A stretch of DNA of 10,313 nt, taken from Methylotenera sp. UBA6020 (GTDB lineage Bacteria > Pseudomonadota > Gammaproteobacteria > Burkholderiales > Methylophilaceae). The notes beneath the pieces are model-generated. The model was not told where the DNA came from. It saw only the letters and a list, made by a program, of their open reading frames with translations, and searched no databases. This document shows positions 5,104 to 10,313 of the stretch, piece after piece. The stretch covers positions 25,696 through 36,008 of the forward strand of contig DIZU01000069.1 in assembly GCA_002429455.1 (NCBI GenBank), written 5' to 3'. A program made the translations under genes and the position numbers. Every line of letters starts with the position of its first letter. The first letter of the stretch is position 1.

Positions 5104-7089
5104 TTACAGCACTGATTTAACAGTTGCCACTACATTTTCAACCGTAAAGCCAAAGTGTTTCATCAACACGCCGCCAGGAGCTGATTCACCGAATGTATCA
5201 ATACCGACAACCGCACCTTCCAGACCTACATATTTACGCCAGAAGTCAGTCACGCCGGCTTCAACAGCCACGCGTTTAACGCCTTTTGTTAATACGCTAT
5301 CTTTATAAGCTTGATCTTGGCGATCAAATACATTGGTGCTTGGCATAGAAACCACACGAGTTTTCACGCCATTTGCATTTAATTCAGCCGCCGCTTTAAC
5401 CACTAACTCAAGCTCAGAACCAGTACCGATTAAAATCACTTGTGCGCCATCTACGTCAGACAACACGTAAGCACCTTTACGCATATTTGCGATTTGAGTT
5501 GCATCGTGCTTCATGCCAGCTACGTTTTGACGGCTCAATACCAAGCTTGCCGGGCCAGTTTTGCGTTCAACTGCTGCAACCCAAGCGACGCTAGTCTCAA
5601 CAGAGTTACCTGGACGCCATACATCCATATTTGGAATGTAACGTAAACCAGAAGTAGTTTCGATTGGTTGATGCGTAGGACCATCTTCACCTTGACCGAT
5701 AGAGTCATGTGTTAACACGTAAATCACACGTTGATGCATCAATGCAGACATACGCATACCGTTACGCATGTAATCAGAGAACATATGGAATGTACCGCCG
5801 AATGGAATTAAACCACCGTGCAACGCCATACCGTTCATGATTGCTGCCATACCGAACTCACGTACGCCGTATGAAATATAGTTACCTGGCTTTTTAGCAT
5901 CTACGTGCACGAAGCTGCCTGTTGAAGTTAAGTTAGAACCAGTTAAGTCAGCAGAACCGCCTAAGAACTCAGGCAATAATGGTGCAAGACCACCAATCGC
6001 GTTTTGTGACGCTTTACGTGTAGCAATGCCTTCAGCTTTTTCATTGACAGCGGCAACAAATGCATCTGTGCCTGCTTTCCAGTTTGCTGGCAAATCACCT
6101 GCCATACGGCGTGTGAATTCGGCAGCTTCAGCTGGGAACGCAGCTGCGTAAGCAGCAAATTTAGCATTCCATGCAGCTTCAGCAGCAGCACCTTTAGCCG
6201 TTGCATCCCAACCTGCATAAACGTCAGCCGGAATTTCAAACGGAGCGTGATCCCAACCAATGTTAGCGCGTGTTGCAGCAACTTCAGCGTCGCCTAATGC
6301 AGAACCGTGGCAATCGTGTGAACCTGATTTGTTTGGTGAACCCATACCAATCACTGTTTTACAGCAGATCAATGATGGTTTGTCTGTCACTTTTTTAGCG
6401 GCTTCGATGGCTTTGTTCAGTGCATTAACATCATGACCATCAACACCAGCAATTACATGCCAGCCGTATGATTCAAAGCGTTTAGCCGTATCGTCCGTGT
6501 ACCAAGCTTCGATATGACCATCGATAGAAATACCGTTGTCATCCCAGAAAGCGATTAAATTACCTAAACCCCAAGTACCAGCCAAAGCACAAGCCTCGTG
6601 CGATACGCCTTCCATCATGCAACCGTCACCCATAAACACATACGTGTGATGGTCAACAATGTCGTGGCCTGGTTTGTTGAACTGGTTAGCCAGTAACTTC
6701 TCAGCCATCGCAAAACCAACACCGTTCGCTATTCCTTGGCCTAATGGACCAGTGGTAGTTTCAACGCCAGGTGCATAGCCATATTCTGGGTGACCAGCAC
6801 ATTTTGAATGTAATTGACGGAATGTTTTAAGTTCGTCCATTGGCAACGCGTAGCCTGTCAGGTGTAGCAATGAATAAATCAACATTGAACCATGACCATT
6901 AGAGAGAACAAAACGGTCGCGATTAGCCCAGCTAGGATTTTTTGGGTTATGAACTAAATGGTTGTTCCATAGCTCTTCTGCGATTTCTGCCATGCCCATA
7001 GGCGCACCTGGGTGGCCAGAGTTAGCTTTTTGTACAGCATCCATTGCCAGCGCACGGATGGCATTAGCCAGGTCTTTACGTGTTGCCAT
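5104..7089 (-). CDS. tkt: Transketolase
   Basis: This thiamine diphosphate enzyme moves two-carbon ketol units between sugar phosphates in the pentose phosphate pathway. In methylotrophs and autotrophs it also serves the regeneration of the C1 or CO2 acceptor. The 661 residues are typical. N-terminal (PP) domain: H26 in SGHPGAP, H66 in SNGHGS, H100, GPLGQG at 114-119, and the ThDP motif GDGCMMEG at 154-161 with D155 and N185 as metal ligands; H261 follows. Pyrimidine domain: catalytic E411 in [10 protein letters not shown]461, D469 and H473. These match the numbering of the E. coli enzyme closely. The C-terminal domain is complete, ending near 661. The ATG at 7089 has GGAG seven bases upstream. 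The gene is the first of the minus-strand run and is followed by a strong terminator. Its leader contains a long inverted repeat. Confidence 0.98.
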
Positions 7090-7401: not shown

Positions 7402-10313
7402 ATGAACTTAATGACCGCCACTTCCACTTACCCCGTCTCTGCCAGTCTGCTGCTGGGCCCGACTCAGACTGAACTGATACGCACCGAAGTCCTCGCCGAC
7501 ATTTTTGAAGCCACGGCCAAACTTCTGCCGCAACAGACGGCGCTTATTTTCGGCCAACGTAAACTGAGTTACAGCGAACTAAATGAGCTGAGCGACAGGG
7601 TCGCTTCTTGCCTGATTAACGATGGTCTTCAACCCGGCCAGATCGTCGGCCTGTGGCTGCCCCGCGGCATTGAACTACTGGTCATGCAACTCGGTATTGC
7701 TAAAGCTGGCATCGCCTGGCTGCCTTTTGACGCTGACACGCCAGCCGACCGCATCTCAATCTGCCTTGCCGACGCAAACGCCGCTGGCTTGCTCAGTTAC
7801 GAGGCCTTTCTGCCATATCTACACGCATCGCCACATAAAATCTGGACTGCCGAGACATTACTGCGACCTCATCCGGCTCCACTCAAGCGCCGTGATGGCG
7901 TTCTGCCAGAACACTCGGCCTATGTCATCTACACCTCTGGCTCTACAGGAAAACCCAAGGGCATCCAGATCAACCAAGGTGCAATTTGCCACTTTTTGCG
8001 CAGTGAAAACAGTCAGCTCGGCGTTAGCCAAGCGGATCGGGTTTATCAGGGATTTTCGGTCGCTTTCGACATGTCCTTCGAGGAGATCTGGATCAGTTAT
8101 CTGGTCGGCGCCACGCTCTGGATTGCCCCGAAAGAACTAGCCACCGACCCGGAAGCCTTGCCACTCGCCTTGATAGAGCAGCAGATCACGGTGCTGCACG
8201 CCGTTCCGACCCTGCTAGCCATGTTCAACTGCGAGATTCCCCGCCTGCAGCTGATTAACCTTGGCGGTGAAGCTTGTCCTGAGGCACTGGTCACCCGCTG
8301 GGCCAGACCTGGCCGCAAAATTTTCAACACTTACGGCCCAACCGAAGCCACCGTCTCGGCCAGCTTGGCCGAATTGCATGTAGGCGAGCCCGTCACTATT
8401 GGCCGCCCTTTACCTAATTACGTACTGCTCGTCATCGACCCGGATCCTGCACAGGAACTGCGCCTACTGCCGTGCGGAGAAACTGGCGAGTTATGCATTA
8501 GTGGGCCTGGTGTCGCGGCGGGCTATCTTGGACGGCCGGATCTAACCGCCGAAAAGTTCCTTGCGAACCCCTTCGCCTGCGGATCACACGACCAAAGGCT
8601 GTATCGTACTGGCGATCTCGCTCGTATTGACGATTCTGGCTACGTCCAGTGCCTAGGACGAACCGATGACCAGGTCAAGATTCGCGGCTTCCGCGTCGAG
8701 CTTGGTGAAATCGAGGCAGCGCTCTGCCAACAAACCGGCATCAGTACCGCGGCTGTCATTCTGCGCCACGATGATGGTATCGAGCGCTTAATTGCCTACA
8801 TTATTACCGAGGACGGAGACTCGCCAGCACAAACGAGCTTGCGCGCCACACTGGCCGAGAGCCTGCCACCCTATATGGTGCCCAGTCACATCGAGACATT
8901 GGCCGAAATGCCACGCCTCACTTCCGGCAAGATTGATCGCAAGGCGTTACGCGCTTTGCCTCTGAATAAAACAAGCGACAATGATAATCATTCTGACCAC
9001 CCTGCCAATGCCGCGGAAGAAGTACTCTTCGCCGACCTTGCCAAGCTTTTTCCGGGCCAGCCGATACGCCGCGACGCTGACTTTTTCTCCGATCTAGGTG
9101 GTCACTCGCTACTTGCGGCGCGCTTAGCATCCGCCCTGCGTAGCAATCCGCAGTTCTCCAACTTCACCGTGCGTGATATCTATCAACACCGCCAGATTAG
9201 CCGTATTGCCGAGATTTTGACCGCAACGCCAGCCACTCTGCCTACCAGCGAGCCATTCTGGACACCGCCATCCACCAGTCAGCGATGGCTATGTGGTGCA
9301 GCTCAGGCCGCCACAATACCAGGCCTGGTACTGCTGCGGATGTCGCAGTGGCTAGCATCTTTTTTCACCTACCATTATTTTACTGGCGATCCCGGCGACT
9401 CAATCGCTCGGGCAATGACCGCCTCCGTTAGCGTTTTCCTGCTGGCAACAGCGCTTGGTTTTGCCGTTGCCATAGTCGGTAAGTGGTTGATTGCCGGCCA
9501 CCTCAAACCGGGCCGCTACCCATTATGGGGGGCTGCTTATTTCCGCTGGTGGCTGGCCGACCGTTTGATTGAAAGCGCGCCGGTCTACATGCTCGGCGGA
9601 TCACCACTGTATGTATGGTGGCTGCGCGCCTTAGGGGCCCGTGTCGGCAAAGATGTCAACATCGGCTCACTAACCTTGCGTGCACACGATCTGCTCAGCA
9701 TCGGTGACGGCGTCAGCATTGGCAATGCGGTCAATCTGGAAAATGCGCGGGTCGAGCGCGGCGAACTATTGCTGGGCCAGATTACGCTAGATACTGAAGC
9801 CTGCGTGGACTCTTACGCCGTGCTCGAAGGCAACACCAGCCTGGGCGAATACAGCCGTCTTGAGGGACTTTCGGCGTTAAGTGATGGCATGCAGGTGCCG
9901 CCAGGGCGCGTTTGGAGCGGTTCGCCGGCCCGTGACATTGGCGCGTTCAACCATACAGCACAGGCACCTAGACCGGTCGTGTCCGGAACCCGCCTGGTCG
10001 GTGAAGCCTTGTTTTTTATAATTGGGGTTTTAGCCACGGCTACACTGTTCTTCATCCCCGTGTTCCCGAGTGTTATTCTGGTCGACTGGATTGACGGCAG
10101 TTATCCATGGCTACAGCAAGGCGATATCGCCTTTCAACTATTCAAATACTTCGTATTAGCTTTCCCGGCAATTACTGTCTTGATTATCTGTACGGCATTG
10201 ATCTCCGCCGCACTGCGCTGGGGGGTACTATTCCGCCTGAAAGCGGGTTGCTGGCCGGTACATAGCAATATTTATTGCAGGCGATGGCTGGTCAACCAGA
10301 TTCAGGAGTCTAG
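7402..10313 (+). CDS. Pls/PosA-family membrane-bound nonribosomal peptide synthetase (A-PCP-membrane/LbH), 3' end beyond window
   Basis: Characterised relatives make cationic homo-poly(amino acids), such as epsilon-poly-L-lysine, at the inner membrane; this one's product is unknown. There are 970 codons without a stop. The adenylation domain (about 20-515) shows LSYSEL (55-60), KAGIAWLPFD (101-110), the P-loop YTSGSTGKPKG (177-187), FDMSFEEIW (222-230), NTYGPTE (309-315), YRTGD (401-405), GRTDDQVKIRGFR (419-431) and TSGKIDRKAL with K510. The carrier domain (about 525-595) has GGHSL with S569 for phosphopantetheine. Hydrophobic segments follow at about 630-657 and 674-697. Next come the family-typical YFRWWLADRLI and YVWWLRALGARVG, a hexapeptide-repeat beta-helix (about 745-850), and segments at about 870-893 and 917-938. 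Inferred pocket residues are D223, M224, E227, H266, I285, L287, T310, V318, S319 and K510. The ATG at 7402 has GGA five bases upstream, and an in-frame stop lies at 7375; ATG 7411 is an alternative. No condensation or thioesterase domain is seen. G+C is visibly higher than in the neighbouring genes, which may indicate transfer. Confidence 0.92.
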   Translation, partial: MNLMTATSTYPVSASLLLGPTQTELIRTEVLADIFEATAKLLPQQTALIFGQRKLSYSELNELSDRVASCLINDGLQPGQIVGLWLPRGIELLVMQLGIAKAGIAWLPFDADTPADRISICLADANAAGLLSYEAFLPYLHASPHKIWTAETLLRPHPAPLKRRDGVLPEHSAYVIYTSGSTGKPKGIQINQGAICHFLRSENSQLGVSQADRVYQGFSVAFDMSFEEIWISYLVGATLWIAPKELATDPEALPLALIEQQITVLHAVPTLLAMFNCEIPRLQLINLGGEACPEALVTRWARPGRKIFNTYGPTEATVSASLAELHVGEPVTIGRPLPNYVLLVIDPDPAQELRLLPCGETGELCISGPGVAAGYLGRPDLTAEKFLANPFACGSHDQRLYRTGDLARIDDSGYVQCLGRTDDQVKIRGFRVELGEIEAALCQQTGISTAAVILRHDDGIERLIAYIITEDGDSPAQTSLRATLAESLPPYMVPSHIETLAEMPRLTSGKIDRKALRALPLNKTSDNDNHSDHPANAAEEVLFADLAKLFPGQPIRRDADFFSDLGGHSLLAARLASALRSNPQFSNFTVRDIYQHRQISRIAEILTATPATLPTSEPFWTPPSTSQRWLCGAAQAATIPGLVLLRMSQWLASFFTYHYFTGDPGDSIARAMTASVSVFLLATALGFAVAIVGKWLIAGHLKPGRYPLWGAAYFRWWLADRLIESAPVYMLGGSPLYVWWLRALGARVGKDVNIGSLTLRAHDLLSIGDGVSIGNAVNLENARVERGELLLGQITLDTEACVDSYAVLEGNTSLGEYSRLEGLSALSDGMQVPPGRVWSGSPARDIGAFNHTAQAPRPVVSGTRLVGEALFFIIGVLATATLFFIPVFPSVILVDWIDGSYPWLQQGDIAFQLFKYFVLAFPAITVLIICTALISAALRWGVLFRLKAGCWPVHSNIYCRRWLVNQIQES

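Follow-up and report, generated by a model that had tools for sequence, protein, structure and literature searches.

The window analysed here is a stretch of 10,313 nucleotides from the genome of Methylotenera sp. UBA6020, probably a methylotroph (contig DIZU01000069.1, positions 25,696 to 36,008, forward strand). At its right end lies a gene, here called posA, for a synthetase of the Pls/PosA type, and beyond the window this gene is directly followed by a gene for a phosphopantetheinyl transferase (PPTase). The features are collected in Table 1. The genome of the window (G000, with the window on contig C225) comprises 2.31 Mb in 227 contigs; its posA locus, L003, has the same numbering as the window. 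In this locus the posA frame runs on to a TAA at 11458-11460 and has 1352 codons, 46 of which are read as X. These correspond to a run of 136 N (10314-10449) inside the gene, and the window ends exactly at the start of this run. No stop is encountered beyond 10313 before 11458 and the frame agrees on either side of the run, although a frameshift within the unread gap would be invisible. As the region of the 46 X has 31 residues in the five relatives compared, residue numbers of the window protein beyond 1016 overcount by about 15.

Table 1. Features of the posA locus, in the numbering of the window
Feature	Position	Strand	Basis
Transketolase (presumed tkt), left neighbour, left side of the insertion site	5104..7089	-	gene name recognised from the sequence
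posA-type synthetase gene, part in the window	7402..10313	+	open reading frame 7402..10311 of 970 aa, with no stop at the right edge
Adenylation domain (about residues 35-518)	7504..8955	+	PF00501, PF13193, TIGR01733, PosA structure 8g95
Pocket residues D223 M224 E227 H266 N286 G288 T310 V318 S319	8068..8358	+	specificity positions read from alignment
Tenth pocket residue K510	8929-8931	+	specificity positions read from alignment
Carrier domain (residues 542-605)	9025..9216	+	PF00550, E 1.6e-6
Carrier motif GGHSL (residues 566-570, Ser569)	9097-9111	+	read in the window protein
Start of the membrane polymerisation domain: hydrophobic region 1, repeat C1, hydrophobic region 2	9301..10313	+	TIGR02353 positions 2-332, hydropathy of L006, repeat alignment
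Beta-helix repeat C1	about 9625-9939	+	repeat alignment
Repeats C2 and C3, with QTH (residues 1284-1286 counting 46 X)	beyond the window, up to TAA 11458-11460	+	own genome, L003
PPTase gene, 202 aa	GTG start 11464, stop 12072 (L003, beyond the window)	+	3 bases downstream of posA

The original prediction had described one polypeptide of the Pls/PosA family with an adenylation domain, a GGHSL carrier and a membrane part containing a beta-helix, devoid of condensation and thioesterase domains. Pfam and TIGR02353 both agree with this description. Six Pfam families are listed for the window protein at E <= 0.01, including AMP-binding (residues 35-376), AMP-binding_C (436-510), PP-binding (542-605) and hexapeptide repeats; neither Condensation nor Thioesterase is among the six. 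The protein scores 398 bits with TIGR01733 (cut-off 317.4) and 739 bits with TIGR02353, the profile of the Pls/PosA family (cut-off 423.1), which places the C-terminal half in this family and excludes an unrelated one. Extension of the locus to the right, which had also been suggested, supplied the repeats C2 and C3 and none of the stops that might have followed just past 10313. The carrier motif is GGHSL or GGHSF in all 81 aligned rows. In the rest of the genome, at its present completeness, we found neither a further adenylation domain over the cut-off nor a condensation domain.

The ten residues of the substrate pocket read DMEHNGTVSK. This code is the same, at 10/10 positions, as that printed for PosA of Acinetobacter baumannii in PMC10522769. 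In vitro, PosA enzymatically makes delta-poly-L-ornithine of 7-12 units; the same paper relates the pocket Met (position 2) to chain length and the pocket Glu (position 3) to side-chain amine binding (PMC10522769). The lysine-type pocket, with the Ala which the same paper gives for Pls at position 2, was not found in the window enzyme, which has Met there. When the first 433 residues of the window protein were searched against the PDB, the best match was the adenylation domain of A. baumannii PosA (8g95, 518.7 bits over residues 15-422); with the whole window protein as query, 7wew, the adenylation domain of the epsilon-poly-lysine synthetase, scored 275.3 bits. The window part and A. baumannii PosA (PDB 8g95-8g98) are identical at 509 of 963 aligned positions (53%), and they share domain order and membership of TIGR02353 (the A. 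baumannii protein scores 725 bits).

We compared the pocket in an alignment of 119 rows, composed of the window, 78 of 80 loci (L007 and L038, being cut off, were excluded) and 40 other sequences. Also excluded were L101 and L103 (regarded as copies of L009 and L008), L130 and L139 (truncated or short) and short duplicate loci; near-copies may remain, and the set, most of which was collected for its similarity to the window, is no census. The exact code DMEHNGTVSK occurs in 84 of the 119 synthetases, window included, the remainder having codes of the DLED, DFE and DAES types and some rarer ones. In a tree of 60 of these rows, selected to cover the codes and groups, the window falls among the Methylotenera rows, within a 38-row branch which also holds A. 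baumannii PosA (SH-aLRT 100), and the DAES and DFE rows sit on other branches. Because the pocket code is identical to that of PosA and both enzymes lie on the same branch, we predict that the product of the window enzyme is very probably delta-poly-L-ornithine. The cationic homopolymer of a diamino acid that had been expected is thus supported by the domain matches, the structure match and the tree, but the expectation of an undescribed oligomer is not supported, given the identity of the pocket with that of a delta-poly-L-ornithine maker, and an undescribed polymer was dropped as first choice. According to PMC10522769, many bacterial genera match known codes, DMEHNGTVSK among them; hence the window gene is a further member of a described system, and the locus is probably a new example of it rather than the maker of an unknown product.

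Pls, the epsilon-poly-L-lysine synthetase of Streptomyces (7wew being its adenylation domain), has the same plan of adenylation domain, carrier and membrane part with C1-C3, but a different pocket and a different branch; the class is named NAPAA (non-alpha poly-amino acid) in PMC13291983. Two Streptomyces rows with the DAES code (L136, L137), taken as lysine type because they have Ala at pocket position 2, carry the Q-x-H motif described below, as the window enzyme does. L136 adjoins an M1 peptidase gene, whereas the window has none there.

Direct search found a PPTase gene downstream of posA in 66 of the 78 relatives that could be tested. When the neighbours of 81 loci were clustered, with half-length overlap required and hence lower counts, the PPTase cluster covered 48 loci and the next cluster 11. 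The PPTase of the window locus has the Sfp fold by the test applied, and at 18.9 bits it lies below the Pfam cut-off of PF01648 (25 bits). In an alignment (A2) of the window's PPTase and 40 of 51 clean PPTase frames, D105, E154 and K158, which we take to be the catalytic Asp, Glu and Lys, are kept in 41/41 rows. The residue preceding the catalytic Glu is not Lys in 40 of these 41 posA-linked proteins (it is Arg in 6), and the residue two after the metal-binding D105 is not acidic in 40 of 41; Sfp carries Lys and Glu at these two positions. The posA-linked PPTases are a divergent subfamily, unlike the Sfp and human AASDHPPT types. The absence of the PPTase outside the group of betaproteobacteria and Pseudomonas is weakly shown: the DLED loci there (L118-L129) are profile-negative, yet the profile also missed PPTases that are annotated in L138 and L142.

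In the polymerising domain, C1, C2 and C3 align mutually without gaps over 103-105 columns (probabilities 99.3, 99.2 and 97.6) in a repeat alignment of 52 rows (A3, 29 loci and 23 of 120 listed proteins). The domain agrees with the plan of the family, three soluble repeats parted by membrane helix pairs; hydropathy on the complete relative L006 gave three hydrophobic regions and five segments over threshold in this domain, without resolving six individual helices. Parts of each of the three repeats show a weak sequence match to the left-handed beta-helix fold of LpxA/LpxD, gamma-carbonic anhydrase and other proteins, from which the domain differs by its three repeats per chain with membrane helices between them. 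Our PDB sequence searches with the polymerising domain gave no solved structure of it and nothing beyond small beta-helix proteins and some weak, stray matches. The PosA paper models the domain as three left-handed beta-helices packed like sugar nucleotide acyltransferases and leaves catalysis open (PMC10522769).

We looked for invariant residues in 28 synthetases picked to span codes and groups, and recounted them on all 119 rows. The sole invariant His of the polymerising domain in the 28 is H1286, in the QTH, QAH or QSH of C3, and it is His in 119/119. Equally kept in 119/119 are Q1284 and E1334 (C3), D1037, G1065 and N1066 (C2), R715, W717 and Q635. The Q-T-H position of C3 corresponds to E-N-A in C1 and to G-D-E in C2 (row L006). 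A separate protein search with the polymerising domain gave 495 matches at E <= 1e-20; Q-x-H is present in 112 of the 120 listed, and the other 8, judged by their last residues, appear to end or lose frame before C3. In a weak PDB alignment (E about 7e-4), suggestive only, H1286 lies opposite a histidine of a carbonic anhydrase. From this conservation, the His of Q-x-H in C3 is a candidate catalytic base.

Going further, we tentatively propose, with slightly less than even confidence, that posA and its dedicated PPTase may form a two-gene cassette that travels in one piece between beta- and gammaproteobacteria, and that the enzyme may have a single catalytic centre. In this centre the His of Q-x-H (C3) would be the general base, the Glu of M[KR]xE (C3) and the Asp and Gly-Asn of C2 would stand around it, and the matching positions of C1 and C2 would have diverged, LpxA-like acyl transfer having been turned into peptide-bond formation. 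Some points count against a single centre. Several other residues are as conserved as H1286, and conservation alone is no proof of catalysis; moreover, according to PMC4668381 none of the three tandem domains of Pls is dispensable, which fits one shared site and equally several. Neither the PPTase linkage nor a catalytic role of this His is reported in the literature searched, as far as its available parts go. A 2013 study, which reportedly mutated the three tandem domains of Pls, may already name residues.

Taken as a whole, the window gene is in all likelihood a PosA orthologue, a membrane-bound single-module non-ribosomal synthetase, armed by a PPTase and making short delta-poly-L-ornithine. 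The co-encoded PPTase would first arm the carrier in trans with phosphopantetheine. The adenylation domain would activate L-ornithine with ATP and load the carrier, and the C-terminal membrane domain, with the left-handed beta-helix repeats C1-C3 in one chain, would repeatedly join the thioester carboxyl to the delta-amine of free ornithine or of a free growing chain. No thioesterase would be needed in this cycle, which follows the scheme published for the poly-lysine synthetase, and the product would be a short delta-poly-L-ornithine. Because a synthetic 12-mer was tested in the PosA paper (PMC10522769), antifungal competition is our best guess, by analogy, for its role.

Several facts weigh against this interpretation. 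No polymer product was observed: the gene, its domains, the identity of the pocket, the branch and the gene order are seen directly, whereas substrate, product, arming in trans and role are deduced from them. The unread N run covers part of posA, and the genome is only 77% complete, so that the absences reported from it are provisional. The tree comes from a quick search with no bootstrap, the PosA row is among its flagged long branches, and three rows with DMEHNG (L105, L116, L142) lie outside the PosA branch. Of the 78 testable relatives, 12 lack a PPTase gene downstream, one of these (L045) carrying a different one upstream. As no PPTase turned up next to posA of A. baumannii or Azospirillum either, the family as a whole does not share this linkage; unlike the window gene, posA of A. 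baumannii is described as a single-gene operon (PMC10522769), and the PPTase profile had no match in the 14.9 kb stretch of A. baumannii examined. Finally, the adenylation domain of PosA itself is modestly active with lysine (PMC10522769).

The gene to the left of posA, which we take to be tkt from recognition of its sequence, occurs in 31/31 genomes of the same genus, own included. Its region was fetched from 7 of the 30 other genomes. In each of the seven, a Gfo/Idh-type oxidoreductase gene is found upstream of tkt at a distance of 287-2501 bases, and posA is missing there; in the window genome 9.9 kb separate the two genes, with the operon in between. One of the seven, G090, has posA at another place. 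In the nearest relative, L006, posA, the PPTase gene and the same Gfo-type gene occur together (the last 1.7 kb from posA), and in L008, L102 and L104 the operon is at a different common site. The posA gene is present in 6 of 150 genomes of the family, and in a sample of the phylum the synthetase was found in 27 of 398 at E <= 1e-60 (26 over the cut-off), own included in both counts. The G+C content is 56.1% for posA and 53.2% for the PPTase gene, with 45.7% in the left flank and 46.5% in the right. As far as substitutions indicate, posA is under purifying selection, because towards L006 the nonsynonymous divergence (dN) is 0.12 and the synonymous one (dS) about 2.3, saturated. Most likely, the operon was acquired into the site between tkt and the oxidoreductase gene and retained. 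High G+C might mark a very recent transfer, but this reading is weakened by L006, which has the same neighbour on the right and whose dS is already saturated. A functional tie to carbon metabolism was rejected, as posA is missing at the site in the seven genomes and three other loci of the family lie elsewhere. The position beside core carbon metabolism noted in the original prediction is real, but this neighbourhood looks incidental and uninformative on the role of posA. Among the nearby genes looked for, the PPTase was found, but no peptidase, transporter or regulator stood out as conserved in the neighbour clusters or came near the frequency of the PPTase.

The same evidence bears on whether the operon could be foreign, decaying or silent, with no product in its host. 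Its patchy distribution, its G+C contrast with the flanks and the site free of posA in every genome fetched would suit this idea; we hold it to be extremely improbable, given the low dN against saturated dS towards L006, a relative that has retained the operon close to the same oxidoreductase gene, and given that the motifs examined are intact in both the synthetase and the PPTase. An intact enzyme might still work with another monomer (lysine, diaminobutyrate or another diamino acid) or make a mixed polymer. Besides the modest lysine activity, the PosA adenylation domain has a low activity with diaminobutyrate, its M218A mutant gains nearly ten-fold in lysine efficiency (PMC10522769), and residues outside the ten-position code differ between PosA and the window enzyme. 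With all ten pocket positions PosA-like, including Met 2 and Glu 3, and with the DAES and DFE rows on separate branches, another monomer seems unlikely.

It might also be imagined that no free polymer is made, ornithine or a short chain being transferred to an envelope component (lipid, sugar or peptidoglycan). Such a transfer would suit a polymerising domain that is membrane-bound and whose repeats resemble sugar-type acyltransferases and gamma-carbonic anhydrases of the PDB, and neither an exporter nor a peptidase is prominent among the neighbours. The poly-ornithine made in vitro by the homologue PosA (PMC10522769) speaks against this idea, which we regard as quite improbable.

Some further observations concern the family and the locus. 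The code DLED(I/L)G(T/S)VVK occurs in 14 of the 119 rows (L118-L129, L099, L100), which form a branch of their own. Codes similar to it are listed among the unique signatures in PMC10522769. Diaminobutyrate transaminase genes adjoin two DFECLS-type synthetases (L135, L141), and the peptidase gene mentioned above adjoins a DAES-type one, which fits the expected monomers. On a Streptomyces mirabilis plasmid, a protein annotated as Pls/PosA family (L139, 3898-6633) seems to lack an adenylation domain and to hold only the carrier and the membrane part, the match to the query starting at residue 535. For a partial synthetase of Phycisphaerae (P0079), PF01041, which we take to be the family of DegT-type aminotransferases, is listed beside the carrier and hexapeptide repeats; this may reflect monomer supply in line or fused genes. 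In the window genome the operon and the Gfo-type gene have between them a gene for a MASE1-CHASE-PAS-GGDEF protein (L003, 13814-16696, with an N run at 13845-13933 inside it) which has no match in the L006 locus. In a PHROGs scan the synthetase matches four families of unknown function and the PPTase none; Rfam and tRNA scans gave no match, and a promoter-like scan gave 5 sites, every one on the minus strand.

A gene with "no known product" now has a specific prediction, delta-poly-L-ornithine, which can be checked by one enzyme assay, and the linked PPTase offers a ready partner to produce the holo enzyme. The invariant His makes bond formation without a condensation domain approachable by point mutants. 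The likely makers of this polymer are widened to Methylotenera-like bacteria, many other betaproteobacteria and Pseudomonas.
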